Source: Xanthostigma xanthostigma
Lineage: Eukaryota; Arthropoda; Insecta; Raphidioptera; Raphidiidae
DNA: 64,000 nucleotides
Assembly (NCBI GenBank): GCA_963575645.1
Contig: OY754464.1
Span: 68,422,948 to 68,486,947 of the forward strand
Reading direction: 5' to 3'
Both the position numbers and the translations under genes were made by a program. Positions 31,710-56,234 of the stretch are shown here, one piece after another. Below the pieces are notes generated by a model. The model had not been told where the DNA came from and did no database searches. It worked only from the letters and a program-made list of their open reading frames with translations. Within the stretch, counting starts at the first letter, position 1. Every line of letters begins with the position of its first letter.

Positions 31710-31801
31710 ATAAAATAGAAATTTAAATTATATTTTTTTATGTATTTGTTTTGAAAGTTTGATTTCCAATTCAAATCAACAAAAATGACATACATCTATT
31801 T

Positions 31802-31941
31802 TAATAAAAAATAGAGAATAGTTACTTCTTACCACAACAAGTTTATTAGTGGATGTACATTTCGAGAGCTATGCTCTCATCTTCAGCAATACACTAATAA
31901 ACTTGTTGTGGTAAGAAGTAACTATTCTCTATTTTTTATTA
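31802..31941 (-). ncRNA. Hairpin with a hammerhead ribozyme-like core
   Basis: Two perfect 50-bp arms (31802-31851 and 31892-31941) enclose, on the minus strand, CTGAAGA (31886-31880), a helix II with 6-bp arms GAGAGC/GCTCTC and an ATA loop, GAAA (31863-31860), the palindrome ATGTACAT and then C (31852). In hammerhead terms A-UGUACA-U is helix III, C at 31852 is position 17, and the arms are helix I, directly abutting the core on the 3' side. All invariant core positions (C3 U4 G5 A6 N7 G8 A9; G12 A13 A14) are present. Family knowledge: such minimal hammerheads occur in Penelope-like elements and retrozymes. Activity is inferred, not shown. Confidence 0.7.
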
Positions 31942-32666
31942 GATTCAAACCACAGTGCTCTTAATATTTTTGTTACATCTATTTTGTTGAATTTTATGCA
32001 TCATCTCAACATTAAAGTTACTTGAACTGTCTTCGAATAAACAAAGAAGAGAATAAAAATGTTCGAGTTCTCAACAGCGTCGAATTACCCAAGGATTCAG
32101 TTAACAGTGGGCCATCATTGCTGACTACCAACTGACTGCTGATTCGCTTTTCTAATATACCTAATAAAGATCAAGTGAGAGAATGTAATTGCACCGCTGG
32201 GTCATTTCAAAGTTTACGCGCTCTATTAAATATTACAATAAAGGTTCGTATATGTGTTTGACACAAATGATTTTCGGGTTAAAGTCGTTATCGCTTTTGG
32301 CTTCCCTTACCCTCCCGCCGAGTGGCGCACAGTGAAAATGCACATATACACATACAGGTCGTGAGATACGTTTCTTTCCGGAACACCATACAATATAGAG
32401 TACTACACAGAATGGAGGTCCCCATCCAGTGTTTGCGTCGTCTCCGTCTGCTATATGGCATCATCATAAAAAGATCAGCGTTTTATGTTTATGGCCAATA
32501 TGTACGTTCGCCGGGCCGGGGTGAAACCGAGCAACAGCAGCGCGTACCTCCTTCCCTTCGGCAACACGTCATACCGCAGAGACGGCTCTTCTTTTTCAAA
32601 ATATCTACCCACTAGTAGAGATCGGATATTTCGAGTGAAACAATTAGATTATTAAAAAATAAAATA
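31942..32666. other. Unassigned DNA
   Basis: The frame at 32322-32615 (97 codons) matches no known domain. Nothing else was recognised. Confidence 0.4.
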
Positions 32667-33148
32667 ATAGTATATTATGCGACTAGTGAGAGAAGGAGAA
32701 GATTCCATGAGTGTGAAATTTGCCGCACGAGCGTAGCGAGTGCGGTAAAACGCACGCGAGTGGAATATTCTCCTTCGATCAATGGTCGCACATAATACTT
32801 TATTCAACTAGCAGCCCTGATAAAAGAGGGAAAAATAATAAATCACTTCATTGATTGACGTACCCACCGTCAGTGTATGCACACAAGATTGCCATGACTT
32901 TCACTGAATTGCAATGCTGTTTTCATATATACAATACCGCCTACCACGTTCCTATTGGTCCAGAAGCTGCGTGCAGTTTTTTTTCATTATTGCACGCTTG
33001 GGCTTGCTACTGAGTTTCTATTGGTCCAGAAAATTTATTATCACACTGTACGGCTCATTATTAGCACTCTACGCGGCAACATGAAGTAATTTATTATTTC
33101 TCCCGAGTTTAGCAGGGCCCCGAAATTACATATTACTCACGCGTGTTG
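32667..33148 (+). mobile_element. MITE C, copy 1
   Basis: It begins ATAGTATATTATGCGACTAG and ends CTCACGCGTGTTG, with AATA on both sides. Internal inverted repeats join TTCAACTAGCAGCCCTGAT / AATAATAAATCACTTCA to TGAAGTAATTTATTATT / AGCAGGGCCCCG...GTTGAA. The first 130 bp contain a separate hairpin, GCCGCACGAGCGTAGCGAG and GAAGGAGAA.../...TTCTCCTTC. Other copies are at 37209-37618 and 41593-42056. Confidence 0.85.
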
Positions 33149-33164
33149 AATAAATACTTTTTTT

Positions 33165-33562
33165 AATTAGTATACCAAATTTTTAAACGAACTAAAAAGT
33201 ATAAAATATTTTTTTAACTTGTAGGATTTGAAACTAAACTGTAGAGAATAGCTATCACTGAAAAATAATAAATAATTTATTAATAAATAAAATATTTATG
33301 AGATAAAGCGAATAATGTGCCCCAAATTTTTCGTTTCAAATCCTACAAGTTAAAAAAAATATTTTATACTTCTTTAGTTCGTTTTAAAAACTTGGTATAT
33401 TTAAATTTTTTTCTTTTTAGTTAATAAAAATGTGATAACAACAAAAATACATCGTTAAAAAAATAAGAAATAATATTTGGTCCTTGGGAGGATCAAACCT
33501 TCGACCTTCGCGTTATTAGCCTGACGCTCTAACCAACTGAGCTATGACTGACGATTGCTAGA
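33165..33562 (-). mobile_element. Family I: tRNA-Ile-like plus hairpin element
   Basis: The inverted arms CGAACTAAAAAGTATAAAAT and ATTTTATACTTCTTTAGTTC, with TTTTTTAACTTGTAGGATTT and AAATCCTACAAGTTAAAAAA, form a hairpin of about 225 bp (33170-33400). After a spacer of about 85 bp comes the tRNA-like unit (33484-33558, minus strand). The order and spacing match 28265-28620 and 63722-64000. Confidence 0.85.
33484..33558 (-). tRNA. tRNA-Ile(AAT)-like sequence
   Basis: Minus strand: CATAGCTCAGTTGGTTAGAG then CGTCAGGCTAATAACGCGAA then GGTCGAAGGTTTGATCCTCC. The D arm and TAATAAC anticodon loop (AAT) match an isoleucine tRNA. T-arm and acceptor pairing are partly lost, and the unit lies within a repeat, so it is probably a tRNA pseudogene or promoter module. 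Confidence 0.75.
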
Positions 33563-35279
33563 TGCCTTTACAATGGTAAATAAGTAAGTAGTTTCGCCCG
33601 ACATACACGAAAAGCGACATAATAAAATCTTGGTAATATCTCGAGCTATTTCGAATGATTTTTATCCTTACGAGATACGACTTATAATAACAATCTCTAA
33701 TATTAAATTAAATTATACCTACTTTTTAAAACACTGTAGGTATTTGTCTCTCTCAGATTGCATTTCACTGTATTGAATATAATAAGATTTTATGTTCTAC
33801 GCAAACACGTAACTCCCCGAAGTACGTTCGTTAAAATCATCATATCGAATGCATAGACAGATAGAATGAATTGTGCATTCACGCGCATAGTACCCAATCA
33901 CTCGAAATACCAATGCATTGCACAGTATTGAATACGATTACTTACGTCTTTTATCGGCGTCTGTTCTATGAAGCACTATATGTGGGTGACTCTCAAGACT
34001 GATAATAATCAAATTCGATACCAAATTCGTTCGAGACTTGAAACATTCATTCGTTCACACGTCTTCTCATTATCGTACATCATGCAAAGGAATCGCTTCG
34101 AATGAATCATTCGATTATCAAAATAATTTGAACGGCTAATTTTTAAAATCAACGATTATCCGCAACTCTAACCAGTAGTGTTGTCTTACCAATGTGGAAC
34201 ACGAGTTCCTGCAATGCTTCGCGACTAATGAATTGGCGACTGATTGACATATGAAGTTGAATAAAAGCTTGTAAAAATATCGTTTTAATAGATTATTATT
34301 TTTTTTTTGCAAGGTCGATGTGATATTATATAGTGCATGAAGAAATACATGTGGTCACAAGGTAATCCAGCAAAATATACCGAAGACATTATTTTCTTCG
34401 GACAGTTATTCATATACCAGCCGTATTCTGATGCTGGGTTAGATTATGATCAAATGGTTACAGTTCCAATACATCAGGATCAGTCTAATGTATTCAAACT
34501 TCCTGTAATCTAGAAAATTAGATTGTACTCACACAAAAACAAATGACTGTTCTATATAGAAAAATACCGCCTTTCAATCTAATTTTTGATCAAAACGCGC
34601 AGAAAAACTTTGTTTTGAAGTGAAAACTGTACAAAAAACGATGCTAAACACATCAATGTACAGTTTAAGAAAAATATCGTTTCAGTCGATCAATTATTTT
34701 TTGAATTTAAAACTCTACTATGCTTTTCATAGGTATGGAGAAATATGTCATTGTCAAATCAGATTTTTTGACAACCCTTTCTGCAACCCATTATAATTGA
34801 ATCTGGATCGTTGTTACTGTTGGAGTAGCTGCAATACGCCTCTGCAAAATGTAGATATCGCTTCCAGTGTAAAAAGTGGTATCGGTGTTATAACGTGGCG
34901 TCGAGTTACGAGACACGGCAACCAAAAAAAATGGTGCATTGCAGTTCAGTTTTATTTAATGTATAATGAAACATTCGACAGTCGACACTCGACAAACAGG
35001 TACAGCTCATTGGATAAACGTTCAACTGTCCGTTAACGTACTTTACTTGAATTACCTTCGCAATACCATAACATTGTTTGAAATCGTAGAGGAAAGTTGC
35101 ACAAATCCAGTTCCATTTCATTCTAAATTCTACTTGAATCTGAATTAAAAATATAATTTCAGAAAGTGTTCCCTTGAGTACTCGAACTTGTAAAACTGCA
35201 TGTCGGAATTGGGGAGTATATAATAGTCTAGTATAAAAAAATGGCTAGAATGGTTGACCATTTTCATTGATATCGAGTA
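33563..35279. other. Unassigned DNA
   Basis: Overlapping short frames near 34797-35148 match nothing known. No transposon ends were recognised in this 1.7-kb stretch. Confidence 0.4.
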
Positions 35280-35573
35280 GGGTAGATCGGGGTCAGTTTA
35301 AACATCGCTGATAATTCAAAAACTATCAGCGGTAGGGGGCGTGTTCAAGGAGAGACGGATGCCATTTTCGTGTCAGAATCTGTCTGTTAATAGTCGGTGT
35401 CCTACGTGTGAGAGGGTCATTGTGTTTTTTCAACATTTTTTTTAATACGTCAAACTGTTTTTGTAGTCTTATAACTACGGTCATTAAGTTCCTACTGTCA
35501 TATGTGCTTAGGTCCAAATGTTTGTATAGAGAACGATTTTGTCAAAAATGGTTCTACTGTCCTCTGCCTACCC
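35280..35573. mobile_element. Small TA-flanked MITE (GGGTAG ends)
   Basis: GGGTAGATCGGGGTCAG at the left is imperfectly inverted as CTGTCCTCTGCCTACCC at the right, with TA on both sides (35278-35279 and 35574-35575). The ends resemble those of the larger pogo-like relic at 54294-55196. No coding region is present. Confidence 0.6.
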
Positions 35574-35575
35574 TA

Positions 35576-37168
35576 CCTTTTACCATTTCAACTCAACAAG
35601 GAATGGGACTAATTTAAGACAAAATTCTCTTTTCTAAATTTTACAATACTTTTTTCGTTTTGAGGTCCAAAAAACATGTTTATGTAAAAAATCTGTTCGT
35701 CTGATGCAGGTCTAATGGATGAGTGGATTGAAACAAAATTTTGGGAGAATGTTTGACATGCAACTATGAAAATCGGCGCATTTTCAGAAGAGATATGTGC
35801 TATAACGTTGTTTTTTCTATTGAGACAGTATATTTTAATTTGCAATTTAATATTTCTCTAGAGAATTTTTAGCTATACTTGTATACTAAAATAAAAATAT
35901 ACTTCTTTATTATGTTGTGTTCACTTTTTCCTCGATGGTTGTCGGGTTAGAGTAGAATATGATGACATGCAAAAAAACAGGTTACCCATTGTAAGGTAAA
36001 AAAAAAACTGTCCACAATGCGATAAAAAATGCTCTCGTTTAAGAAAAATCACCTGTGAAGTATATATCGGATAGTTGTGAATCGTTGATGGGAAGTATAA
36101 AGAGTTGGGTAACTAAGTTCTCAATCCGTGAAGATTCGTGGGAGCCGACATAAACAGTTTTCTTATACAGATTTATATAGAAATAAATTCAATTTGGTAT
36201 AACCGATGGCAAACATCTTTCGCTTATCTCTTTCTGTTGCACGGTTTAACATGGCAATTTAAAGATTGCGTAAAATAATGATAACACAACTGTAGACTGA
36301 AAGCTTCAGCTTTAAAAAAATTGTGTCAATCGGTTGAGTAGAGATTGCTGGCGGATTGGCTAGAGGTATAGGGCTTGTGCTTTAAATATATTTAGATTTA
36401 AATTTTTGTATACCTATATACACGCATTGGATAATTCAGTATCTTATTTATGCATTTGGAATAAAATTTGAGTACCTACGTACAATTTTAACTATTTTCG
36501 AATTTGATTTTAAATGAAATATTAATCTAAAAAAAAAAAACGGCGTGCCATATTTATCAGTAGGTATACATTAATAAGTAAATAGTTGCAGTAACATATA
36601 CAGAAGTCAGATCTTCTTGAGTCGGTTCAGAGAGTCAGATCCTATACAGGATTCAAATGCAAAGATGCAAATCACTAAAAAGATCCGTTTGTCCCATATC
36701 TCTAGAAGACTAGACACGCATTGAAAGTCATGGTTTTTATCTCGTTCATAGCACCTGACAATAACAAGCCATAAACCCGTTGTGCCAAACCGCAACTATG
36801 CACAGAACAATGATAAGTTTATAATTGAGTTAAAGCACTGAAATCGTAAAACGAGTTGGAACGATGTGTAATAAAGTTTACCTCTGCACACCTATATATA
36901 GATTGTAGTTTATGCTAATAATAATTGGAACTACATAGTCCCGGTTTTATTATGTTAAATAATAAAACGATCCTCTTCCATCAAGTTTTAGTTTTTAGAA
37001 CGGATGAGTAGTAACTGACCTACATTTCATCACATCTCTTATTGCTCGCTAAACATGTCCAATTCACCGCATTTCCAAACTAGAACTTTGCTAATATCAC
37101 ACTTCAAGTGAGAGACACATTTCAAAAGACTAACAATAAAATAACAAGAAATATTAATAAATATTAAC
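35576..37168. other. Unassigned DNA containing a repeat K fragment
   Basis: The interval 36160-36275 (AAATAAATTCAATTTGGTAT, ATGGCAAACATCTTTCGCTT, CTGTTGCACGGTTTAACATG) matches 22660-22770 reversed. A diverged GGCGCATTTTCAG piece near 35772 recalls the 125-bp minisatellite unit. No gene was recognised. Confidence 0.5.
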
Positions 37169-37208
37169 TTCAAATCTTTGATTAACGTCTGATTAGAACT
37201 CTTCAATA

Positions 37209-37618
37209 ATAGTATATTGTGCGACTAGTGAGAGAAGGAGAAGATTCTATGAGCGTAAAACGCAGGAGTAATATGTAATCGGGTCCCTGATAAAAGAGGG
37301 AAAAATAATAAATCACTTCATTGATTGACGTACCCACCGTCATTGTATGCACACAAGATTGCCATGAATTTCACTGAATTGCGATGCTGTTTTCATATAT
37401 ACAATACCGCCTACCACGTTCCTATTGGTCCAGAAGCTGCGTGCAGTTTTTTTTCATTATTGCACGCTTGGGCTTGCTACTGAGTTTCTATTGGTCCAGA
37501 AAATTCATTATCAGACCGTACGGCTCATTATTAGCACTCTACGCGTCAACATGAAGTAATTTATTATTTCTCCCGAGATTAGCAGGGCCCCGAAATTACA
37601 TATTACTCACGCGTGTTG
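37209..37618 (+). mobile_element. MITE C, copy 2 (nested)
   Basis: It matches 32667-33148 but lacks the GCCGCACGAGCGTAGCG hairpin segment and the region around it. AATA flanks both ends (37205-37208 and 37619-37622). Confidence 0.88.
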
Positions 37619-37704
37619 AATAAATAAAATTATCGACCAATTTTTCAGACAATATATTAACAAAAAATATAATTAATACATTAACGTTTCGATCCGGATT
37701 TAGA

Positions 37705-37755
37705 TCAGTTCTGAAGAAGATCCAAATCCGGATCGAAACGTTAATGTATTAGTTA
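37705..37755 (+). ncRNA. Hammerhead ribozyme-like core of repeat alpha
   Basis: CTGAAGA (37711-37717), helix II arms GATCC (37719-37723) and GGATC (37730-37734), GAAA (37735-37738), the self-complementary ACGT (37738-37741) and U at 37742 as a possible cleavage base. AA after it can pair with UU before CTGAAGA to start helix I, and the flanking palindrome supplies longer pairing. Helix III is so short that activity would be expected only as a dimer, as reported for Penelope-like hammerheads. This is the best-preserved alpha core in the window. Confidence 0.6.
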
Positions 37756-37843
37756 TATTTTTTGTTAATAAATTGTCTGAAAAATTGGTCGATAATTTTA
37801 TTTATTAAATATTCAATTTATAACATTATCGATTCAAGTGTAA

Positions 37844-38286
37844 CACATGTCCCTTTTTGATGAATTCCAGTCCTCCTTCACCGAAAATTATAATAATGAT
37901 GTCATTCGATTCGGAATGACATCTAGAAACTTTTGAAAAAAATTGAAGCAGGGGAATTAGAAAAAAATTTAGCCCTATTTTCACCTTTAAATTAAAATTA
38001 GAAATATTGGTAGTTTAGTTCCGGGAGATGGGACTTTTTTGCAGGCAATTTCCTGCTCTTTCAGAATCTTTTTTGTGATTTTAAATATCTGCAATAATTT
38101 TTGAGAGATTCGCAACAAATCAAACCCCTCTTTTTTCGTTCACTAAAATGCTTATAACTTTTGCAATTTTTCCGTCCTCCGCTTCAATTTTTTCAAAAAG
38201 TTTGTAGATGTCATTCTGAATCGAATGGCACCATGATCATAATTTTCGGTGAAGGAGGATTGGAATTCATCAAAAAGGGACATGTG
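37844..38286. mobile_element. MITE G with long terminal inverted repeats
   Basis: CACATGTCCCTTTTTGATGA at the left is mirrored by TCATCAAAAAGGGACATGTG at the right. Complementarity continues through TCCTCCTTCACCGAAAATTA and GATGTCATTCGATTC... for over 100 bp per arm. It is non-coding with no copy elsewhere in the window. Neither side gives a convincing target duplication. Confidence 0.85.
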
Positions 38287-38321
38287 AACTTAGCTATTGT
38301 ACAGAAATGTAAGAATTGTTA

Positions 38322-38548
38322 TCTATACTAATTATAAAGAGAGTGCGAATTTTGTGTTTGTGTGCATGCGGAGGGTAATCTCCGGAATCACTGCACCTAT
38401 TTGAAAAATTCTTTCACCACTATTTAGAATGTACCTTTGGGATAGACATAGGCTATATATTATTGCATTAAAATAAAGGCGCTTTTCGTGGAGACCAATT
38501 TTGCAACGTACGTAATTCGACGAAAACGAAGCCGGACCGAACTACTAG
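38322..38548 (+). mobile_element. Short Helitron-like element
   Basis: It starts TCTATACTAATTATAAAGAG after A and ends GAACTACTAG before T. At 227 bp it is much shorter than the 58038 copy. It shares the head, but its interior (CGGAGGGTAATCTCCGGAAT, GGCTATATATTATTGC) is different. Confidence 0.7.
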
Positions 38549-38939
38549 TAAATAATAAAAATATACCCGCTCAGATGAGAATAAACTTGCGAATATTATT
38601 TTAATTTACTCTTAACACATTTTGACCCATTTCTACTTGTTTGAATAATATTTATTTAGCTCGCGGTGGAAGTCCCCGTGCTTATGGTGGTGAAATTTGT
38701 CTCCAGTCGTTTTTGCAAGTTTTTTTCATATAATGACATATACGACTAAAATAATAACGGTAGCATTTAAAAATAAAGCATGTTTTCTACTAAAAGAAAA
38801 AAAAATAATATTTAATTTAGGTTCATATTTAATGAAAGTTTGTTGCAGCCACGATTCACGCTTTTATATTAAATTATACAGTTTACGAAACTTGTTTAAT
38901 AAAAAGGGTTTGTCTAGACTCCTATAGAGTCTATGTCAC
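38549..38939. other. Unassigned DNA
   Basis: A 76-codon frame (38697-38927) shows no known domain. Confidence 0.4.
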
Positions 38940-39215
38940 TAACCTTACAAATTTAAAAAATAAATCGTAGGATTGTGGACAGAAATATGAGATTTATTTA
39001 ATGTACCATATTTCGTCTATAGATTTAGACTTTTTCAAGTAGGTACACATAGAAAATTAATTAAACTTAGTAATTAATGTTGGTTTTCATAATTATAATT
39101 TTTTAATTTTAAAACGCGGTACATGAAATAAATCTACTTTTTTTTTGTTCACAATCCTGCGAATTTTCTTAATTTCATTATCACGATGAACACGATATCT
39201 AATGTAAATAAATAC
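38940..39215. repeat. Diverged inverted-repeat element related to 19745-19872
   Basis: AAATCGTAGGATTGTGGACA near the left and GTTCACAATCCTGCGAATTT near the right are imperfect inverted repeats enclosing further GAGATTTATTTAATGTACC / GGTACATGAAATAAATCTAC pairing. The flanking AACACGATATCTAATGT matches TATCGTGT-type sequence beside the 19.8-kb hairpin. Confidence 0.65.
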
Positions 39216-39339
39216 GTCAACAAAAAAAAATTAAACTGTACATTCATATGTTAGTACAATTCCTATTAAATAATTAGGTTAGACTGTAGGGTGATAAATT
39301 TTTGTAGCTGCAAGAATTTTAGTTCGGAGCTTTCACTAA

Positions 39340-39858
39340 TGGCCATATTCACCGAACATTTATTCGGTTCATTTGTTCCTTTAGGTAGCTATTCCTCCCA
39401 ATCAATAGCGATAATTCAATTCACCAAGGATAATTATGTTTACTGCAGGTATAAATCTATTATGTCTTACTTCCAGGGTATAGTTATTTATTCGCCTGAT
39501 AAAATAATAACTTAGATCATAATACCTAACCTATAAACGTGGAGTATTATATCTACAGTTTGCTCTTGTGAATTTATTTTTGTGTTGTTTATTAACCTTT
39601 TGTGAAGTGTATAGTTGTATTATTTTGTGAAACTTGTTTTGACGTTTACACTAACGCCATCGGTCGGATTTTTGGGTGAACGTCAAAATATTCAATAAAA
39701 AGAGCAAGGAGTATAGTGCAGTATATATTTATTCTTTAACTAACTTTTCTACCCGATATTTTGCTTGGTGAATTGAAAGTAAATTTTATTCTAACGAATA
39801 AATTTGTTCTAAGATTAGTAACTTCTATCTTTAATGGTGTTCGGTGAATATGGGCGTA
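39340..39858 (-). mobile_element. MITE D, reverse copy
   Basis: The ends GGCCATATTCACCGAACATT and GTGTTCGGTGAATATGG are inverted repeats, and the interior is the reverse complement of MITE D at 14553-15139, including GTCGGATTTTTGGGTGAACG. Frames inside it are not genes. Confidence 0.88.
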
Positions 39859-40213
39859 ACACGGTTGTTATAATGTTGATTTTCAGTGTCAGGGTTTTCC
39901 AATTGAGGCTGAAGATTCAAAGCGTCGGCGTCGAATGCGTCCCCTTCCCGCACCCGTCTCTGTATTCCATGTGTACAAAATAAATAACTATCTGAGAGTT
40001 TGGTGTTCAAAACCCAGTTTTGTGAATATGGGTCAATGTAAGATTTACTGGCTCAGTATAGGATATATTATATTGTCTAGTACCGGAAATTATGTTGATA
40101 ATTGAGATAAGTCGACGGCCACTAAACTTTAGTTATTTCTCACGATAAGCTCTTCTCGCTTTTACGTGTATACAGTGTGTTCAAGCTTTTGCGGCTTTGT
40201 AGCTTTAAAAATG
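39859..40213. other. Unassigned DNA
   Basis: Nothing was recognised. Confidence 0.4.
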
Positions 40214-40230
40214 TTAATACAATTTCTTAA

Positions 40231-40649
40231 GAGTGTTCGTTCCTGCAAATACCCCCTGCACCCTTCATCTCAAATCTTTTCCCCTCGCCTAAAAACGGTT
40301 CGCGCTCTTCCGACGCTATTTTTAAAGCTAGAGGATTCTGGTAAACGCCAAATGAAAGACAAAGAATCAGACTACAGATCCTTCAGGCGATTTTTCTGAA
40401 AAACAGTTTCGCCTACGTGTGAAATATTACGTAACTTATTATTTTTTTCAAAAGGTTGTAAGTTTTTTCAGAAATTTTTTTCAAAAAATTCGCCTGAAGG
40501 ATCTGTAGTCTGATTCTTTGTCTTTCATTTGGCGTTTACCAGAACCCTCTAGCATTAAAAATAGCGTCGGGAGAGCGCGAACCGTTTTTAGGCGAGGGGA
40601 AAAGATTTGAGATGAAGGGTGCAGGGGGTATTTGCAGGGACGAATACTC
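40231..40649. mobile_element. Foldback element with 17-bp flanking direct repeats
   Basis: Arms of about 170-190 bp are complementary: AATACCCCCTGCACCCTTCA / TGAAGGGTGCAGGGGGTATT, and CGCCAAATGAAAGACAAAGA / TCTTTGTCTTTCATTTGGCG. A roughly 70-bp AT-rich centre separates them. TTAATACAATTTCTTAA (40214-40230) and TTAATGCAATTTCTTAA (40650-40666) flank it with one mismatch, longer than the duplication of any common DNA transposon. The frame at 40166-40399 is spurious. Confidence 0.88.
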
Positions 40650-40964
40650 TTAATGCAATTTCTTAAGCCGCGTTAGATTTCGAATAACTTGAATATATCC
40701 AAATGTGTAGACTTTTACGGCCGGCGTTGTTCCAAGTGAACTTGTAGTGATTCATTGGTGTTTCTACCTGACGTTTCGTCTACAGACAGAGCATAAAATG
40801 ACACGTATAACAGATACAAGAGTAGCTGTAAACTTTGATATACAGTGAAATTCAGTTAAGACGCATCATGTAAGCGCGTTTTGTTTATTTGGTAGCTATG
40901 CAAATCATTAATGCATTACAGAAAATCGTTCCACTTAAAATAAAACACACACCGAAAAAGAGTA

Positions 40965-41461: not shown

Positions 41462-41592
41462 TATATACTTAATAAATAAGTAAAATGCATTAAGTAATGA
41501 TTAATTTTCATAGTTACTTCATCAAAAAATCTTAAATCATTCATGGTATAAAGGAACTTGAAAAAAACTCCGGTGTGGTAATTCTATTTATT

Positions 41593-42056
41593 CAGCACGC
41601 GTGAGTAATATATAATTTCGGGGCCTTGCTAAATTCGGGAGAAATAATAAATTATTTCATGTTGACGCGTAGAGTGCTAATAATGAGCCGAAACTGTACG
41701 ATAATGTATTACTGCATAGTTTCTAGACCAATAGGAATGCGGCAGCGAGCCGAAACTGTACGGTAATGAATTATTACTGCATAGTTTCTGGACCAATCGG
41801 AACGCGGTAGCGATTTGTATATATGAAAACAGCATCGCAATTCAGCGAAAGTCCGGGCCATCTTGTGTGCATCGAGGGCGGTGGGTACGTCAATCAATGA
41901 AGTGATTTATTATTTTTCCCTCTTTTATCAGGACCCTGATTACACATTACTCGTGCTAGTTGAATAAAGTATTATGTGCGACCATTGATCGAAGGAGAAT
42001 ATTCCAGTCGCGTGTTACCGCACGAGCGTAGCGAGTGCGGTAAATTTCACGCTCAC
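41593..42056 (-). mobile_element. MITE C, reverse copy
   Basis: The reverse complement matches 32667-33148, including CACTCATTAG-type ends, GCCGCACGAGCG hairpin bases and ACTTCATTGATTGACGTACC. TATT (complement of AATA) lies on both sides (41589-41592 and 42057-42060). Part of the interior (AATGAGCCGAAACTGTACG) is tandemly repeated at 41680 and 41742. Confidence 0.8.
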
Positions 42057-42060
42057 TATT

Positions 42061-43540: not shown

Positions 43541-43577
43541 ACCGACCGTTTTGATAGACGTGGTCGATAGTAAGTAC

Positions 43578-44512: not shown

Positions 44513-44514
44513 TA

Positions 44515-46714: not shown

Positions 46715-46716
46715 TA

Positions 46717-47135: not shown

Positions 47136-47510
47136 AACAGGCAAAATATTAGCTTTGTGTAGATAACAGCACCAGTACCTACTATCGCGATGTTACTTAT
47201 TTATCCGTTCAGAAAATGAATGATAACCAATAAAAAATCATCCAGTCGCCAGAATATTCTGCCTAGAAAAGAATAGTAAACTAGATTTTTTTTGTTAAAG
47301 TTCTAGCTTGATAGTTAAGGATATATCAACCACCGAGAAATGAATGGAATTTAGTCAACTTATTTCTTAAAATATCTGCTATAAGTTCCCAAAATTTCAG
47401 AACGGCTTACAAACTCGTTTAAAATATTTATAGTTATGAAATTAACATGAGCTCTTACGGCAAAATCGTGAATCCATAGGTAAAATTACCGAGAATATTT
47501 CGTAATTATT

Positions 47511-47548
47511 AGAACATAGATGTGACTAATAAGTCACATCTATGTTCT
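47511..47548. repeat. Perfect 17-bp-arm hairpin
   Basis: AGAACATAGATGTGACT, AATA and AGTCACATCTATGTTCT form a perfect inverted repeat. Its position is isolated, with no coding gene on either side, so a terminator role is not supported. Confidence 0.8.
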
Positions 47549-47844
47549 GTTCAAAATTATATCTATTGTTACCGTTGAAAATCACGAAAAAAAAATTTGT
47601 TGCTGCAGCAAAGTATCAAATACGTAGGTACTTACTGCTGTCTAACAAATTGTACCGAAATAGAATATCAATTTATGGGCATACTTTAAACTTTTGCCTG
47701 CTATTATACCTCATACATCCTTAAGAAGCATAAACTTAAATTTTTTTCTTCTTCGAAAGGGTTTGCATATGTCCACAAGGTGTCACAAAGCATCCGTAAA
47801 AGAGTTATTCGGAAATATCTCCAAAATACTTTTATAGTCTAGTC

Positions 47845-47885
47845 CGGGGGTGGCGAACCTATGGCACGCGACAGATTAATATGGG
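47845..47885. mobile_element. hAT-like terminal fragment, second copy
   Basis: GTCTAGTCCGGGGGTGGCGA then ACCTATGGCACGCG matches 6842-6880. The TCTAG before the end is again hAT-like. The following sequence is unassigned. Confidence 0.6.
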
Positions 47886-48127
47886 CACGGCATTGATTAA
47901 GGTAAATAAATAAATTATACTAAATATGAAAATTCAAAAGAAAATATTTTTACATAATGTATTTAAATACAAATAATAAAAGGTTTTCGGACGTATACAT
48001 ATTTCTGACACAAAGATTTTGAAGAGCACAATTATACAGTCGCCTCTCTGATTATATCTGATTATATATAAAATAAATTTTGTCACTCTCATTTACCTAT
48101 AAAATATAGATGCTTCGATATTACATT

Positions 48128-48842
48128 TAAAGCGGCCTACACACCTTGATACAAGCTGCGATGCAGGCATCGACTCTTATGTTTCATGATGCAAGTAGCG
48201 GTGTGTGTAGTACTGAATCACGTATTTGGCATCAGTTGCGGCTTGCAGCAATGCAGAGTCTGGAATCCCATTTTGGTCGGCGAGCCACGACGCCAAGGCG
48301 ATGATGCTGATGCAAGTTTCAGCGTGTATAGAATTGCGTCGATGCCAAGACGATATTAATTTATTTTCCCGCGCCATTTTAGAGGTTACTTTGTTGTTTG
48401 TGTATGTAAATTCCATGATAGAACGTAATCGTGTATTTTGGGAAGAGTTCATAAACATTTATCATCTGCATTCTGCATACGATTCTTTGGAATATAAATG
48501 TAATTTTAGCTCTTCCAATAAAGCATTTGAATAACGTTTTCTTTCTATAAACCATCTTTTTGACCATTTCCTTTTTGATTTCCTTTTATGGAGTATAAAG
48601 AGTGCCCCAACTACTGGTAATAAAACTGGTGTTGGCAAAACGTATCTAATTTTATTCGTCAAGCACTAGGTACCTAGAAAATAACTTAACCTACTGTTCT
48701 TCTATTGCATGAACATAGAGTCGATTCAGGCATCGTAATAGGTTTCGATTTAAGTAGGCGTTTATGCAACTGATCCAAGCTTCATGAAACATAGAGTCGA
48801 TGCCTGCATCGCTGCTTGTGTCAAGGTGTGTAGGCCGCTTTA
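48128..48842 (+). mobile_element. MITE with GCGGCCTACACACC ends and a MADF-like remnant
   Basis: AAAGCGGCCTACACACCTTG at the left and CAAGGTGTGTAGGCCGCTTT at the right are inverted repeats. Inner copies of GATGCAGGCATCGACTC / GAGTCGATGCCTGCATCG and CTTCATGAAACATAGAGTCG continue the symmetry. A plus-strand frame inside encodes a MADF-like segment. Confidence 0.85.
48415..48534 (+). pseudogene. MADF-like DNA-binding domain fragment
   Basis: The 39-codon frame opens MIERNRVFWEEFINIYHLHS and continues with EYKCNFSSSNKAFE before TAA. The WEEFI..Y..H....EYK.....AFE spacing recalls the first helices of MADF domains (Adf-1-like), which occur in accessory proteins of PIF/Harbinger-type transposons. 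It is short, so the call is tentative. It sits centrally in the inverted-repeat element at 48128-48842. Confidence 0.5.
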
Positions 48843-49640
48843 GTTTTGACTTGAGCTAATATCAATTAATGACGTGATTAAATTGCGTAATTGATTATTT
48901 CAGTTTTATAATTTACTATAATTTTGTATCACTTGTAGTTTGGTGTTCATCGAATAAAGAATTAAATATTTTATAGTTTAAAACGTGTTCCTATTTACAA
49001 GAATATCAGAGGCGGCAAATTTAGCTAATCCGGCACTTTTTAGGTAAGTGATTGACCTAACTGTCATCAATCTACTGTTTGTTGTTTTTGGTATATTATA
49101 ATGAAATAATTTATTAATTTCTGAAACGAACGCAACATAATGTAGTGTATTACAAGTAAATTTTTTATGACTACACAAATTATAGCGCCTCGTCGTGAAT
49201 ACCAGAGCTGTAATTATCTTTTATTGTTTCGAATATTTTTTTAATTAATGTAATAAATTGGTAACTTCAACATTGTTTACAAACGGTTTACAATTTATAT
49301 TTACCTACGTTATGTGTTGTTTGACTTGTAATTTATTTGGTTGTACTAAATTAAATATAAATCGTCATACAATTTTAATAACGAATATTATTAATGTTTT
49401 TATAAAATTTACCGTTTTTGTGACAGCAAAAGGCAGCTTTTAGTCGTTTAAATAATATCGATGAGCTGAAATGTAATTGAAAATGTCATTTATGGAGACG
49501 TGAAATATGAGGATGTACAATTTAATTGACCAATTTAAATGTTATTGAAGTGAATACTTCTTTAAAAACGGGGGTAAACTCGTTTCCCTATGTAACGAAA
49601 TTTGTCACGAAATTGTATTATCAGTAACCCTATATAAACA
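48843..49640. other. Unassigned AT-rich DNA
   Basis: Nothing was recognised. Confidence 0.4.
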
Positions 49641-49649
49641 ATGATTCTT

Positions 49650-49725
49650 TGTAAGCATTGGTATCTCAGTTGTGGAATGCTGGCATACCATGCGGCCGGC
49701 TCGGGTTCGATTACCGTCAGGTGCG
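49650..49725 (+). tRNA. tRNA-like sequence
   Basis: GCATTGGTATCTCAGTTGTG / GAATGCTGGCATACCATGCG / GCCGGCTCGGGTTCGATTAC gives A-box-like and B-box motifs with a rearranged middle. It is followed by T-rich DNA like the other element-borne tRNA-like units. No second copy of the host element was found in the window. Confidence 0.6.
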
Positions 49726-49837
49726 CGCAACAATTTTTTTTTATTATTATTTTTAAGTATACCTGTTATACAAATCTTTATACCTATCTATATATAAAAT
49801 TTTCGATTAATTTATCACAATAAAACTTGAGCTAAAA

Positions 49838-49960
49838 AAAACAGTATTTGCAGTAAAACTGCGAAAATAAAAAAAAGCAATATTTGCAGTAAACCTGCGA
49901 AAATTTTGTTGTCTGCTTGTATTTTTTATTTATTATTTGCAGTAAACCTGCGAAAAAATT
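49838..49960 (+). repeat. Three direct repeats of TATTTGCAGTAAACCTGCGAAAA
   Basis: A unit with core GCAGTAAACCTGCG occurs near 49843, 49881 and 49936 (first copy AAACTG instead of AACCTG). Each copy can form a small GCAG...CTGC hairpin. It lies about 120 bp downstream of the tRNA-like sequence. Confidence 0.75.
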
Positions 49961-49966
49961 AAAAAG

Positions 49967-50318
49967 GTGTTACAGAACGCATTACAGAAGTGAAACTTCT
50001 AGTTGCATATCATACGATTGCATTTGGACAAGTGGAAAAATATGTTTAGAGATAGTTTAACGTTCAGATTGACTAGTACAGACGAAATATCTGAACGTGA
50101 AACTATCTTGTAACACATTTTTTCCACTTGTTCATATGCAATCGTATGATTTGCAACTAGAAGTTTCACTCCTGTAATGCGTTCTCGTAACACATTTTTT
50201 GTGACAATTACTATCTTGTAACACATTTTTTCCACTTGTTCATATGCAATCGTATGATTTGCAACTAGAAGTTTCACTCCTGTAATGCGTTCTCGTAACA
50301 CATTTTTTGTGACAATTA
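49967..50318. repeat. 108-bp direct repeat plus inverted partial copy
   Basis: The unit beginning CTATCTTGTAACACATTTTT occurs at 50103-50210 and 50211-50318 almost identically. An inverted partial copy at about 49967-50045 contains GAACGCATTACAG, AGTGAAACTTCTAGTTGCAT and ACAAGTGGAAAAA. Since 108 is divisible by three, a minus-strand frame (49999-50403) carries a duplicated 36-residue block containing KNVLRERITGVKLLVANHTI. I recognise no family and consider a gene unproven. Confidence 0.8.
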
Positions 50319-52159
50319 CGAGTGATTGTATAATGCTCTGGAGCTGTTGGTAATTAGTAAGTTGCTCTCGTATTTTTAAAAATATATTTCGCGCAGACCA
50401 CAACCAAACAACAAGACTCTTGAACGGTCATTATAGTATTTAAATAAATGTTTACAGTTTGCAGAAACATTTGAAATCATTATTGTTCGTTTAACATTTG
50501 GATACAAATTACCATTTAATTTGGTATTCCGTCTCTCTCTTGCTCGCACGATATGTGATGAAATTAATTACCGGTCGTAAATTAATTATTGAGGTCGTAA
50601 TTAACGCGACATCTAATGCATCGAGCAGGCGAGTATGTGTATCGGAGCAAGAGGGTTGTGCGCACAGGTTTAGGGGAACCAGGGGTACGGACGGAACGCT
50701 GTCATCGCGTAGAGTCTAAAATCGTTACGAGTCCAAGTTGGCGGTTTTGTGCTGATAAAAATACATAAAGTAGTCCGGGCGTTTTTAGAATAGTCAAAAT
50801 AAACAATTGAAAAAAAAAATTCGAATTTCTTTTTTACCCAAATTAAATCGAAAACGACCTAGATTTTATTTTTTTTATTTTTAACGGAGTGTCCGATTGA
50901 AACGCGATTAGATTTCCTGAAAATTTGGAATGGTTCTCGGCCCAATAAATTTTGAGAAATCTAAAAAATACAAGTTTCAAAAATTTTTAGAAATTTGTTT
51001 TCTAGCATATTTTCTAAACTACTAAACCGATTAATTCCAAAATCTAATCAGCTGTTCTCCCCAAAAAACCGCATCAAAATCGGTTAATTTGTTCAAGAGA
51101 TGCAACGAAAATTTTGTAAAAAAGTGTTTTTTTTTTAAATTACTCGTAAAATTCTTATCTGATCGTTTTTTTTTGTAATAAATTGCTTTCTTAGGTTAAA
51201 AAAACTGCGTCGATTGCCGCAAACCGCATCAAAATCAGTTCATTTGTTCACGAGATATCGTGAACGGAAAATTAGTAAGAGAATGTTTGTTTTTTGAGCT
51301 CGAAGAGCTAAAAAATTTGCTTTATTTTATATATTTTTGAGCGGTTTGAACTCGCAAGTAGTAGCAAGTTTCAGGGATAACCTACAGGGTCAACCTTCTT
51401 TTCAATTTTTTTTTATTGCAAATAATTGGTGGTGTTCACATATAGATAATTCTCCCAGAACCGGGCAATGTCGATTGGTATTGATCGGTAAATAATTATG
51501 ACATTTTAAATGATTAATTTCTTTTTAACAGTTTTGGGCATATACTAGTTCATTCATAATAATGACGATATCATAACATGAAATGTGGAAATAGGAGACC
51601 AAATGCATATGTTTACAATGTACTGTTTGTTTACTGAAAAGGCTTGATATTTGATGTCAATTATATAAAACCAAATGTGTGAGGACACGCATTATTTTTA
51701 CCAATTTTTAACAGTGCCTGGCAGATACTGCATTTTAAACTTAAAGTTTTTACTGGTGGCTTCACTCGCGTTAATGTCGGGTTTTGACAACTCATCGTAG
51801 CGCTGAATCTATATAAAAAAATACAAAGGACGTGCCTGCGAGTGAAATCGAGGGAAAATAAGCTCTTCCATCAGAATACGTCTAAAAAATATAGAGTTTA
51901 TTAAAATACGAAAGTTGTGTACGCGTGAGGTGGTTGGGAGTAGCGTGATGATTCCAACACCTGTTAGGTTTTAACCCCTATCGGTTGCGCAATCCCCCAA
52001 CGTTTCAAAATTTAACTCTAACGGGCAAAAAAAAATTAATTGCGTCAAAAGTTTTTCGCGTGAACACACGCTGCATACAATAACGACCGACACTTGGACA
52101 CAGTCTACCCACAACGTTTTATAGTTTCACATCATTCTACCGTCAGTAAAATGATTTAT
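50319..52159. other. Unassigned DNA
   Basis: A 73-codon frame (50498-50719) is not recognised. 50780-51420 looks like an old repeat with recurring AAATCGGTT/ACGAGATAT phrases, but no copy was found elsewhere here. Confidence 0.4.
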
Positions 52160-52234
52160 GGCCATATTCATCAAACACTATTAGAGATAGAAATTACTAA
52201 TCTTGGAACATTCGTTACAATAAAATTTACTTTC

Positions 52235-52405
52235 TGTAATGTACATAGATGTTGAATAATTTTATCATTTAAATTATATTATGTATAATTGATATTGATC
52301 TTTTGAATCTGTATTAGTCAGTTTATGTTGAGAATTTGATAGTGAATAAAGTTGAGTTGAAATAAAAGTAGACACAGTTTTTTTCTAAGAGTACCTATAT
52401 CACTA
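52235..52405 (+). repeat. 5' LTR of the Mag-like element
   Basis: 171 bp, TGTAATG...TATATCACTA. It differs from the 3' LTR by several substitutions and short indels, so the insertion is not very recent. Confidence 0.88.
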
Positions 52406-52409
52406 TTAT

Positions 52410-52420
52410 TGGCGACGAGG
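52410..52420 (+). promoter_or_regulatory. tRNA primer-binding site
   Basis: TGGCGACGAGG five bases after the 5' LTR complements a tRNA 3' end ...CGTCGCCA. A serine tRNA primer is known for Mag elements. Confidence 0.75.
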
Positions 52421-52443
52421 AAAAAGAATATTAAGAACTTACG

Positions 52444-52758
52444 ATGCCTGAAACAAATGTAGCGACAGCACGTGGTCCTCTTATGGGAACTATGGAGCCC
52501 TATATACTGGGAGAAAATTTTGAAGACTATTTGGAGAGATTAGATAATTTTTTTGAATTAAATGCGTTAGGCGACAATGATGTTTTCAAGATACAATTAC
52601 TTAAGAATTTAATTGATCCAGCAGCTAGTGTGAACATTTCAAAGTCCTGCAAGCCTAAAGTGCCAAAAGAATTCACTTACCAAGAAATCAATGAGAGATA
52701 CAAGAGACTCTTTTGTACAGATCGAATTACGATCACAGTCTTAAGGGAGGAGATGTAA
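52444..52758 (+). pseudogene. Gag N-terminal remnant of the Mag-like element
   Basis: The 104-codon frame contains GTMEPYILGENFEDYLERLD followed by NFFELNALGDNDVFKIQLLK, typical of the start of Mag/Gypsy gag proteins that form the virus-like core. It runs through FTYQEINERYKRLF and stops inside the 3' LTR, because the deletion joins gag almost directly to the polypurine tract. The zinc knuckle and all pol domains are missing. Confidence 0.85.
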
Positions 52759-52920
52759 TGATATATGTTGAATAATTATCATTTAAATTATATTATGTAA
52801 TGCTCATTGTAATTGACCTTTTGAATCAGTATTAGATACAGTTTATGTAGAGAATTTAATAGTGAATAAAGTTGAGTTGAAATAAAATTAGAAACAGTTT
52901 TTTTCTAAGAATATATCACA
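52754..52920 (+). repeat. 3' LTR of the Mag-like element
   Basis: 167 bp, TGTAATGATATATG...ATATCACA, directly after the purine-rich tract AAGGGAGGAGA. Confidence 0.88.
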
Positions 52921-53316
52921 CTTTCAAATCACAAACCGAATTTTCTGGTAAAATAGTTAATAGAAGAATAAATGCACACTGCACTATACTCCTTGGTATT
53001 TTTGTTGAATATTGTGACGTTCACCCAAAAATCCGACCGATGGCGTTAGTGTCAACGTCAGAAATCAAAGTTTCATAAAATAATAATGTTTTATCTTAAC
53101 CCGCAATTGTACAAAAAAACTTCCTTTAACTTTTGTTTTACAACTATACACTTCACAAAAAGTTAATAAACAACGCATAAATAAATTCACAAGAACAAAC
53201 TGCAGAAATACGCCATGTTTACAGGTTAGGTATTATGATCTATGTGGCGGCCATTATTATTTTATCAGGCGAATAAATATTTATACCCGAGAATTTGGAT
53301 AGAATTGATTTATACC

Positions 53317-53873
53317 TGCAGTGTTGCATATTTTGAAATGGGCTCCGCCTCCATGTAAATTCCCAATAAAGCGATGACATTCAATTATTTATCTACGTTT
53401 ATTTCCGTTTAGGAAGTGGCTTTAACGTATATTATACCACATCAAGTTGTGCAATGCATACCCATCTAATACGTTATCTTTATACGTAGGAACTCTAGTA
53501 GGTGCTACATTGAAACGCTTGAACCTACTTAAATGTTGTTAAAATCATTTTTTATTTCCTGTTATACCTAGTATTGTCGCATTAGGGGTTTTGAAGAAGT
53601 TTTTATATTCTCTATGTACCTACATGTTTTTCGGGATTGTACGAATCTGGAGTATTCCATCTCGAAATATTGCTGGAATATTTTTTTTTCTTTCAAAATG
53701 TTAAAGAATGTTGTTTTTTCACTGTTTTTTTTATAAATATATAGGTATATAACTTTTTTTGATTAATATAGAAAAAATTTGATAAAAAATCACAAACCTA
53801 GAAAACATTACATACATTTTTTTTTCATAGAATGCCAAATAAAGAAACTACTTCATAGTAGTACATTATATAT
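53317..53873. other. Unassigned AT-rich DNA
   Basis: Nothing was recognised. Confidence 0.4.
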
Positions 53874-54205
53874 TATTTAGAGCTGTAAAAGTAACGAGAA
53901 ATTGTGTACCCGTATGTATTCGTTACTTAAAGATCCAGTACATACTCGTTACTTTCGTATCGTTACGTCACTCGATACTTTTCATTCGACACACAATCGT
54001 GTACTAGCAACATCAAGCATGTACCATCGCATCGAGGCGCGTCGCATACGTGATACGATATGACTTCGTACGCATAACCGCATCAAACGAGTCGAACTGT
54101 CATGGATACGACAAATGCGAGTAACGAAATGAATTTGTAAGTAACGATTCGTTACTTCGAGTCAGACGATGTACCCGTTACTCGGTAACGAATACATACG
54201 GTTTG
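53874..54205 (+). mobile_element. Probable hAT fragment rich in GTAACG/CGTTAC
   Basis: TAGAGCTGTAAAAGTAACGA at the left resembles a hAT end. CGTTAC and GTAACG occur repeatedly at both sides (GTATTCGTTACTTA, GTAACGATTCGTTACTTC). The right terminal repeat is not seen. Confidence 0.5.
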
Positions 54206-54207
54206 TT

Positions 54208-54280
54208 ACAAATTGTATGTAGATACATTAGGAAAAAATAGAATTATTATTTTTTCCTAATGTATCTGCATACAATTTGT
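54208..54280. repeat. Hairpin with about 32-bp arms
   Basis: ACAAATTGTATGTAGATACA through TTAGGAAAAAATA is mirrored by TTTTTTCCTAATGTATCTGC through ATACAATTTGT, with a loop of about 8 bases and one mismatch. Confidence 0.85.
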
Positions 54281-54293
54281 TATTACACATGTA

Positions 54294-55196
54294 GGGTAGG
54301 ACGGGGGAATGGCGTTCACTTAAGGAAAACATGGTGTATTTTTTAAATTATTTATTATGAATCAAAATTAACAAGAGTAAGAAAGTCTTTAATTATCGAG
54401 TAATCAACAATTTAACAACAAATGCATATATCTTTCACCTACTAGTAGTAGGAAAACATTATTAAAAAAACATGTTTGAGCGGCATTGCCCCTGCCTTTG
54501 GGTAATGCCGCTCAGGGTCTCATAAAGAAGTGTACCCAATCCAATCTGGTTGTTTTGCTGCTTTGATCAAAATTGTTTTTGATATTGTTGCGCTCAGCAA
54601 ATTTATAAACAAGTTTAGGCAAATCTGCAACATTGAGTTCATAATATAGCGAGCCCAGCAACTTAACTTGTTCAGCAATTTCAGTTTCTTGCTGTTGGGT
54701 GGAAAACGGGCTTCTTCGGTCCAAGCCGCTTTAGCGGTGCTCCTTTGACGATTTCTTGGCATATCTATCTAAAACAATAAAAAAATAAGTCACTAAGGGG
54801 TAATGGCGCTCAGATGAGCGGTATAACCCCAACCGGTCGTTTTGTAATTAATTTGAAATTTTAAAAAAGTCATACACGATTGTTGAAAATTGACTGCAAT
54901 ATCACAAAATAGAATAGTTTATTGGCAGAAAAGTAAAATTAGTAATTAAATAAGCATTAAAGTTTTGGACTTACCGACAAAAAACACCTAATTAAAAATT
55001 AGATCAGTACGGCCGCAAACAAAGAAACGCTCTTCACGGTCACATGACGCGAGCTGACTGTCCGTTTGCAACGCTGTCTATTAGAGGCCCCCTCCCCTCG
55101 CGCTTCACGCGACGTGACGTGTCGCTACGTTTCTTTTTGACAGAGTTACAGAGGTGAGCGCCATTACCCAGTGAGCGCTATTCCCCCACCCTCCCC
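54294..55196 (-). mobile_element. Pogo-like transposon relic with GC-rich ends
   Basis: GGGTAGGACGGGGGAATGGC at the left is inverted as ATTCCCCCACCCTCCCC at the right, with TA on both sides (54292-54293 and 55197-55198). GCGCTCA/TGAGCGC motifs recur inside (54478, 54803, 55155, 55171). It holds a frameshifted transposase N-terminus on the minus strand. Confidence 0.85.
54512..54762 (-). pseudogene. Pogo/Tigger transposase DNA-binding region, frameshifted
   Basis: One minus frame starts MPRNRQRSTAKAAWTEEAR. After a frame change the other continues SPFSTQQQETEIAEQVKLLG then SLYYELNVADLPKLVYKFAE and RNNIKNNF...DWVHFFMRP. This matches the paired helix-turn-helix (CENP-B type) of pogo transposases: a helix with E-x-x-L, then L...A...FA..N.I...F, then DW...F..RH/P. 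The DDE domain is absent. One indel near the start of the second frame breaks it, so it is inactive. It lies inside the 54294-55196 element. Confidence 0.82.
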
Positions 55197-55298
55197 TATA
55201 TTGAACAGGATGTACTTCTTAAAACTTGCGTTATATATATATATACGGATAACGTAGAAATCCACACAAGATAAATTTATTAAAAATCTTTAATTAGC

Positions 55299-55329
55299 GA
55301 CTAGTTTCGGCCAACATGGCCATCATCAG
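55299..55329 (-). ncRNA. Hammerhead ribozyme-like core, left arm
   Basis: Minus-strand CTGATGA (55329-55323), helix II GGCC/GGCC, GAAA (55308-55305), the palindrome ACTAGT (55305-55300) and C at 55299. This is the exact inverted equivalent of the right-arm core. Confidence 0.7.
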
Positions 55330-56010
55330 GCTTATCATACAAAAAACTAGAATGAAAGTAATAAAAATACAACAATTAGGTTAATCTTAAGGTTCACAAT
55401 GCATTAATTTGAATACATAATATTAAATACCTTATAATATGTTGAGAAGGCATTCATTGTCCAAAAAAAGAAGAGTTGATAAAACATTATTGAATACAAA
55501 TTCAATCATTGAACAAACAATATTTTAATAAAAATCATTGAATGATGAAACAAAGTCATCTTGTTAAACATTAAGTTTAAGTTTTGTAAAAACTTTTTTT
55601 ATCAAATGCAAAAAACTACGTCTGGAACTGATAATTGTGTCAAGTGAGTAATTCTATTCTCTATAGTCTATATTATAACTATAACCGCCATTCTTTTCAC
55701 TTGACACAATTATCAGTTCCAGACGTAGTTTTTTGCATTTGATAAAAAAAGTTTTTACAAAACTTAAACTTAATGTTTAACAAGATGACTTTGTTTCATC
55801 ATTCAATGATTTTTATTAAAATATTGTTTGTTCAATGATTGAATTTGTATTCAATAATGTTTTATCAACTCTTCTTTTTTTGGACAATGAATGCCTTCTC
55901 AACATATTATAAGGTATTTAATATTATGTATTCAAATTAATGCATTGTGAACCTTAAGATTAACCTAATTGTTGTATTTTTATTACTTTCATTCTAGTTT
56001 TTTGTATGAT

Positions 56011-56048
56011 AAGCCTGATGATGGCCATGTTGGCCGAAACTAGTCGCT
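56011..56048 (+). ncRNA. Hammerhead ribozyme-like core, right arm
   Basis: CTGATGA (56015-56021), helix II GGCC-ATGTT-GGCC, GAAA (56036-56039), self-complementary ACTAGT (56039-56044) as helix III and GUC with C17 at 56045. The next bases GCT pair with AGC just before CTGATGA to start helix I. CUGAUGA, GAAA and a GUC cleavage triplet are the textbook consensus. Helix III is 2 bp with a 2-base loop as a monomer, or 6 bp in a dimer. Confidence 0.72.
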
Positions 56049-56234
56049 AATTAAAGATTTTTAATAAATTTATCTTGTGTGGATTTCTACGTTATCCGTA
56101 TATATACTCCCCTATATTGTTTTTTTTTTATGCTAATGGATTTTGCCGAAGCATATATTATTCAAAATAAAAAAAAAATAAATAAAGAAACTACATGCAT
56201 GTGCCTTCTTGTATAATAATAATCTTTACTTTTT

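Follow-up and report, generated by a model that had tools for sequence, protein, structure and literature searches.

A stretch of 64,000 nucleotides from the genome of Xanthostigma xanthostigma (Raphidioptera; assembly GCA_963575645.1, contig OY754464.1, positions 68,422,948 to 68,486,947, forward strand), hereafter called the window, contains three families of small hairpin repeats that share one hammerhead ribozyme plan, at 31.8 kb (family A), 37.7 kb (family B) and 55.2 kb (family C). Judging from their sequence and surroundings, these repeats are very probably pseudo-long terminal repeat (pseudo-LTR) insertions of three different Penelope-like elements (PLEs), in which a minimal type I hammerhead lies upstream of the reading frame and the RNA usually acts as template with the hammerhead still uncut. 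A previous sequence-only reading of the window had regarded them as unrelated, retrozyme-like elements that had converged on a hammerhead acting as a dimer.

The shared plan was found at each of the places at which it had been described. The core of family A occupies 31852-31886 (-), from CUGAAGA to C17, with the predicted cut between 31852 and 31851, and that of family B 37711-37742 (+), from CUGAAGA to U17, with the predicted cut after 37742. Family C holds one core in its left arm (55299-55329 (-); predicted cut between 55299 and 55298) and another in its right arm (56015-56045 (+); predicted cut after 56045). The helix II strands differ between families A, B and C (GAGAGC/GCUCUC, GAUCC/GGAUC and GGCC/GGCC, respectively), as do the self-complementary stretches directly 3′ of GAA (AUGUACAU, ACGU and ACUAGU) and the nucleotides at position 17 (C, U and C). 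The window copies have the CUGANGA and GAA boxes, helices I and II, A15.1, U16.1 and H17 of a PLE-type core, helix I having 2-3 contiguous bp only. As to whether such a pattern would occur at chance frequency in shuffled sequence, the check named in the sequence-only reading, we scanned both strands of the window for CTGANGA-N(8-25)-GAA and for a strict form that also requires at least 4 bp in helix II and a palindrome ending in U16.1, followed by H17. The core alone was found at 13 places (14 rows of the script scan), compared with a mean of 4.6 in 300 dinucleotide-preserving shuffles, two of which reached that number. The strict pattern was found at five, namely 23151(+), 37711(+), 56015(+), 55329(-) and 31886(-), whereas the 300 shuffles averaged 0.0067 and none had more than one. 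These five sites represent three families and are not independent: 55329 and 56015 lie in opposite arms of a single inverted repeat, and 23151 is a further family B site. The script scan also found family B sites in a more decayed state at 21557(-) and 60329(+).

All three window insertions consist of head-to-head arms with a one-sided tail of about 35-40 nt, as is characteristic of PLEs. The family A insertion (31803-31973), delimited by its inverted repeat, by its extent in 20 relatives and by a target-site duplication, has two pseudo-LTR arms of 53 nt (31802-31854 and 31889-31941, 98% complementary) with the tail on the right arm, and is flanked by the 12-bp duplication TACATCTATTTT (31791-31802 (+); right copy at 31974-31985). 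The family C insertion (55204-56106) has 410-nt arms (55238-55647 and 55697-56106) that are 100% complementary and a tail on the left arm (55198-55237 (-)), the outer letters of which are common to the tail and the 13-bp duplication CTCCCCTATATTG (55191-55203 (+); right copy at 56107-56119). The family B insertion (37166-37809), with 91-nt arms (37616-37706 and 37719-37809, 96% complementary) and a tail at 37169-37209 (-), is split by a nested 406-bp non-autonomous element foreign to it (37210-37615); its 8-bp duplication TAAATATT (37158-37165 (+); right copy at 37806-37813, overlapping the element end) is short and AT-rich and is the weakest of the three. Two further family B pairs are present in the window, one at 21460-23290, with a (-) copy at 21460-21569 and a (+) copy with tail from 23139, and one at 60086-60480, with a (-) copy at 60086-60201 and a (+) copy with tail at 60317-60432.

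Families A and C are tied to PLEs by long coding regions elsewhere in the genome (623 Mb in 28 contigs). In one locus (L009), family C copies flank an 844-residue open frame that matches RVT_1 (E 6.6e-11) and GIY-YIG (E 2.2e-5), both above the Pfam cut-offs. A search for GIY-YIG domains gave 37 rows, from which 20 regions were fetched, and led to five loci, L077-L081. The longest of their frames, which has 804 residues and lies in L078, matches RVT_1 (E 3.1e-11) and GIY-YIG (E 1.2e-5), again above the cut-offs. In L077-L080 the frame is followed by the family A hammerhead with its core unchanged, and in L078 it is preceded by one as well, while an altered version lies downstream of the frame in L081. 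Thus, one open reading frame (ORF) combining a reverse transcriptase (RT) with a GIY-YIG endonuclease, as expected of a PLE, was found for families A and C. In tblastn searches, the translated arm end and tail of family A (31915-31974 (+)) were identical to codons 1-20 of the stop-to-stop frame in L078, as was the translation of 55234-55293 (-) in family C to codons 1-20 of that in L009. Because the first methionine is residue 23 in the former frame and residue 35 in the latter, these arms and tails reach as far as the presumed ORF start or stop just short of it. For family B, a 94-aa frame in L113, on the strand opposite to its hammerhead, resembles the GIY-YIG-bearing loci L064 and L072 (34% identity, E ~1e-7), and L124 contains a 41-residue match to that frame (78%) upstream of a same-strand family B hammerhead; a Pfam search with the 94-aa piece gave no hit up to E = 1. 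We have taken A, B and C as separate PLE lineages; over 757 residues, the proteins of families A and C share 32% identity. When the L078 frame was used as a protein query, 799 of the 7,991 candidates scored were relatives, and the nine rows with organism names among the 120 relatives listed were all from arthropods (Allacma, Chrysoperla, Wyeomyia twice, Bemisia, Aedes three times and Topomyia). No solved structure matched the L009 frame up to E = 0.01, and two exact-pattern scans of viral contigs revealed no relatives.

The families are present in many copies in the genome. DNA searches gave at least 88 matches for family A, at least 48 for family B and at least 46 for family C, which are lower bounds because 40 candidates were scored in each family, out of 821, 322 and 67, respectively. 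Allowing one mismatch, the tail pattern occurred at 605 places for family A and, as a 36-nt pattern, at 6,104 places for family B, with none for the reversed-pattern controls; the 60-nt family A hammerhead, with up to two mismatches, occurred at 809 places, its reversed control again giving none.

We scanned the 20 fetched GIY-YIG regions for CTGANGA and GAA with no fewer than 4 bp of helix II, the palindrome not being required. At least one site was found in 13 of them and none in L068-L072, L081 and L084; the site at 1144(-) of L077, which lacks a palindrome, is probably a chance match, and L086, a relative of L075, has ACGG in place of the palindrome. Nine members were compared, namely the three window families, L067, L073, L074, L075, L076 and L082, of which L074 and L076 are near relatives; L083 and L085 (near L082 and L076), the family A loci L077-L081, the non-palindromic L086 and the decayed window sites stand outside this set. 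Contiguous helix I was 2-7 bp (mean 3.9, compared with 0.47 when strands were mixed between members), helix II 4-6 bp and the palindrome 4, 6 or 8 nt. In all nine, a single unpaired nucleotide separates CUGANGA from helix II, and the helix III stretch is palindromic, with no stable monomer form. The plan is therefore common to other PLEs of the genome, and since the families are themselves PLE ends, with related proteins in A and C, the view that they are unrelated and convergent is not supported. We also compared the nearest-neighbour energy of a double hammerhead with twice that of monomer helices I and II in six of the nine members. The dimer was lower in three, 31.8 (-18.2 versus -7.2 kcal/mol), 55.2 (-22.6 versus -15.8) and L082 (-20.8 versus -14.2), and not in the ACGU members 37.7 (-7.9 versus -9.8), L067 (-11.7 versus -13.4) and L075 (-18.5 versus -20.2). 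The sequence-only reading is borne out as to the hammerhead plan and a short palindromic helix III suited to pairing between two molecules, the energies favouring the dimer for palindromes of 6-8 nt only.

If the RNA were commonly cut before reverse transcription, the cDNA would run off at the cut, and insertion ends would be expected to gather at the first nucleotide 3′ of it (+1). In the window copy of family A the tail arm begins at +1, where microhomology extends over up to 6 nt, and 20 relatives seemed to start there as well, but the query that retrieved them contained the junction and so picked similar copies. To avoid this bias, we took the first 20 places of the family A tail search and used BLAST to place each arm on the native copy in L078. 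The 5′ edges of the tail arm lay at -46 to -49 in eight copies, at -43 to -17 in four, at +9 to +16 in five and at +22 to +45 in three; the opposite arm, present in 17 loci, ended at -45 to -51 in 11, at +9 to +17 in five and at +34 in one. None of these 37 ends was at +1, and we reject arms starting exactly at the cut as a feature of the family. Duplications of 10-14 bp were seen in 15 of the 20 copies, and none or 5-7 bp in the other five (no null was computed). Position -49, that is, 49 nt upstream of the predicted cut, is the A of TCAGTTT in L078, other native copies reading CCTAGTTT. The L078 sequence agrees with the arthropod initiator consensus TCAKTY.

Junctions between arms, counted by exact-match patterns, gave a similar picture. 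Both arms reached -49, with 0-20 nt between them, at 90 places (two of those listed falling in one locus), and both reached -17 at 13 places, joined mostly within helix II. The narrow pattern for both arms at about +11, part of the +9 to +17 class, had one place, and that for both arms at +1 had four, all of which cross the predicted cut, three with the helix III palindrome as the exact point of joining. The joining points included stretches of the hammerhead that are self-complementary, in helix I, helix II and the helix III palindrome. A mixed pattern, in which one arm retains the 5′ helix I strand and the other lies near the cut, occurred at 59 places, for 32 of which the letters were shown and the others were judged by length. 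In 54, the junction was 44-57 nt long, which places the second arm upstream of the cut, at roughly -6 to -19 in the absence of inserted letters. None was 33-43 nt long, and a blunt join of -49 to +1 would give 38 nt. In the remaining five, the second arm could end at the cut or next to it. Four of them resemble the window copy, being 29 nt long and joined at CACTAA/TTAGTG; their end is ambiguous between +1 and +6, and an end at +1 is indistinguishable from microhomology. The fifth is 32 nt long with three letters between the arms. In the both-arms-at-+1 and mixed classes together, no junction was unambiguously at the predicted cut, and five of the 63 places were ambiguous. These ambiguous places, together with the five of 20 tail-defined copies in which both edges lie at +9 to +17, could mean that cleaved RNA is the template after all and that its processed or trimmed ends hide the cut. 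Given that the largest class runs through the intact hammerhead to -49 and that the second arm lies upstream of the cut in 54 of the 59 mixed junctions, we regard this as unlikely, and the footprint suggests that uncut RNA is the usual template of new family A insertions.

The arrangement of copies bears on whether the repeats are retrozymes, i.e., small non-autonomous repeats whose RNA, after hammerhead cleavage, is circularized and then reverse transcribed by a PLE. The copy numbers given above would suit such elements, as would the shortness of most sampled family A copies (about 170-240 bp). By contrast, among the first 100 of the 809 hammerhead places, 20 neighbouring pairs lay within 5 kb of each other and 19 of these were head-to-head, with gaps of 0-18 nt in 12, 49-116 nt in four and 1.5-2.7 kb in three; the twentieth pair was in direct orientation with 1,371 nt between its members, so that no direct tandem of less than 1 kb was present. 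The one exception among the loci read was L019 (C4:2410500-2412500), with three direct family A hammerheads 158 bp apart. Copies moreover end at the tail and at the initiator-like site, not clearly at the cut, and families A and C have long RT/GIY-YIG frames. On the arrangement of copies and their linkage to ORFs, we therefore reject the retrozyme-like nature proposed for the window repeats, which we consider very improbable. Even less credible is that they are foldback DNA elements resembling miniature inverted-repeat transposable elements (MITEs), or microRNA-type hairpins, in which the hammerhead plan is incidental. The inverted repeats are long and near-perfect, and the hairpins gave sub-threshold matches to Rfam microRNA models; these scored about one third to one half of the gathering scores and were rejected as hairpin matches. 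One-sided tails, duplications of 8-13 bp, the linkage of families A and C to RT/GIY-YIG frames and the retention of helices I and II across families all speak against this reading.

As PLE insertions, family A copies have their 3′ end just before the ORF start, at the tail, and their 5′ end often 49 nt upstream of the predicted cut. A pathway that would produce them begins with an RNA starting at the A of TCAGTTT, in which case the hammerhead would make up the first 49 nt of the RNA. Reverse transcription would start inside this RNA, at the tail, much as described below for the Anolis PLE in vitro. A start at the leader's own tail site would yield the many short hairpin copies, and a start at the downstream pseudo-LTR would yield copies containing the ORF. 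Two cDNAs, or one folded back, would then be joined head to head, often via self-complementary stretches. The hammerhead, if active, would be expected to work best as paired copies, as helix III has no stable monomer form, and its cut would usually not precede templating.

A rather doubtful extension of this pathway is that the palindromic helix III is kept chiefly as a site at which RNA dimers start: two leaders would pair, one cDNA would be made for each target strand, and the cDNAs would meet head to head. If so, the ribozyme cut would be a late or disposal step and not the maker of the template end, and this would explain why helix III stays self-complementary despite its differing sequence and length, why insertions have two arms and why the templates of family A extend through an uncut hammerhead to the presumed transcript start. 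The calculated energies of the ACGU members, which do not favour the dimer, argue against it.

Some results weigh against the hammerhead motifs themselves. Rfam hammerhead models gave no match in the whole window at the gathering threshold, nor in two stretches searched up to E = 5. When five further PLE-linked hammerheads from this genome, all with ACGU, were used to build a covariance model, it ranked the family B sites of the window high (37703, E 1.9e-4; 23143, E 0.018; 21518, E 0.054; 60321, E 0.084) but scored family C (E 0.43) and family A (E 2.3) weakly, and its ten best places included two, 23548 (E 0.074) and 28828 (E 0.61), that belong to none of the families. Others weigh against PLE leaders that are left uncut during templating. 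Family B appears to be tied to PLE coding by short fragments only, without a full ORF. The footprint comes from a single family and from patterns matched exactly, and the ambiguous mixed junctions, the edges at +9 to +17 and the ACGU energies all count on this side as well. The presumed transcription start is deduced from DNA ends and the arthropod initiator consensus; by eye, the 5′ end of several family B copies seems to lie about 130 nt upstream of the hammerhead, and the upstream copy in L009 starts inside the core and not at an initiator.

Other repeats adjoin the insertions. Just left of the family A insertion is a large foldback (31128-31714) with 201-nt arms, 92% complementary, plus outer arms, and family B is adjoined by an inverted repeat (37844-38286) whose arms, 112 nt each (90%), are separated by 219 nt. 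The element nested in family B is one of three copies of a non-autonomous repeat of about 400 bp, the others, at 32668-33145 and 41596-41956, being 98% and 83% identical to it in parts. Upstream of the family B hammerhead, in L124, L125, L042 and window positions 23100-23160, a T-rich stretch that has TTTTTTAG or a similar sequence at its end precedes ATCAG; by eye it resembles a splice acceptor, and a leader intron is possible. Elsewhere in the window, a tRNA match at 63726-63785 (+) was above the Rfam gathering score and a weaker tRNA-like match at 33487-33544 (-) below it, neither of which was found by ARAGORN with the bacterial code; 50102-50319 is a perfect 108-bp tandem duplication, and 21990-22404 contains 3.3 copies of a 125-bp repeat.

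Much of what we describe has precedents: PLE hammerheads, a weak helix III, dimer action, tails and inverted pseudo-LTRs are already in print. Minimal, dimer-type PLE hammerheads were reported by Cervera 2014 and by Lunse, Weinberg and Breaker 2017, according to papers that cite them (PMC7761336, PMC6155905, PMC6466107). The hammerheads of the present study resemble them, as described there, in their core, their place in the pseudo-LTR, the lack of a stable monomer helix III and the cleavage as dimers that was proposed for them; by the same second-hand descriptions, they differ in having several palindromes (ACGU, ACAUGU, ACUAGU and AUGUACAU) in one genome and in the unpaired nucleotide before helix II. 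According to PMC7229834, the hammerheads of metazoan non-LTR retrozymes and newt satellites are likewise of type I, with a weak helix III bearing a palindromic loop in the axolotl, and cleave better as dimers; unlike the families described here, they are direct tandem, non-autonomous repeats giving circular RNA.

The closest parallel is PAc, a Poseidon PLE of Anolis carolinensis (PMC11167929), which has an ORF with RT and GIY-YIG domains, pseudo-LTRs and a hammerhead near the ORF start. Its tail lies between RT start sites, an internal RT start accounting for the tail, and both target strands are cut and extended; in vitro, insertion takes place from unprocessed RNA, hammerhead mutants still insert, and no RNA reads end at the cut. 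The family A footprint, in our analysis, is in line with these results in pointing to uncut RNA as template. The PAc cut is 26 bp inside the ORF, whereas the predicted cuts of families A and C are upstream of the first methionine, and PAc copies are described as tandem, whereas close family A copies are head-to-head. The Penelope families of Adineta vaga, from the part of PMC3846280 on which we draw, also have inverted head-to-head pseudo-LTRs and a pseudo-LTR and tail that reach the ORF start, with a 31-bp tail, duplications of 8-10 bp and palindromes at the inverted junction. Self-priming on an antisense template was proposed there, and the joining of family A arms within self-complementary parts of the hammerhead fits self-priming. 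In that part of the report, the junctions were not related to a hammerhead, whereas here their positions on the hammerhead were counted. We found no junction census on a hammerhead-bearing leader in the literature searched, Cervera 2014 and Lunse 2017 lying outside that search.

What the X. xanthostigma genome adds is the footprint of insertion ends on the hammerhead-bearing leader of a PLE. With 809 near-identical hammerhead places in family A, insertion ends can be read as a record of the ends of the template RNA. More generally, tiny hairpins with the appearance of separate ribozyme families can be pieces of the leaders of ordinary retrotransposons.

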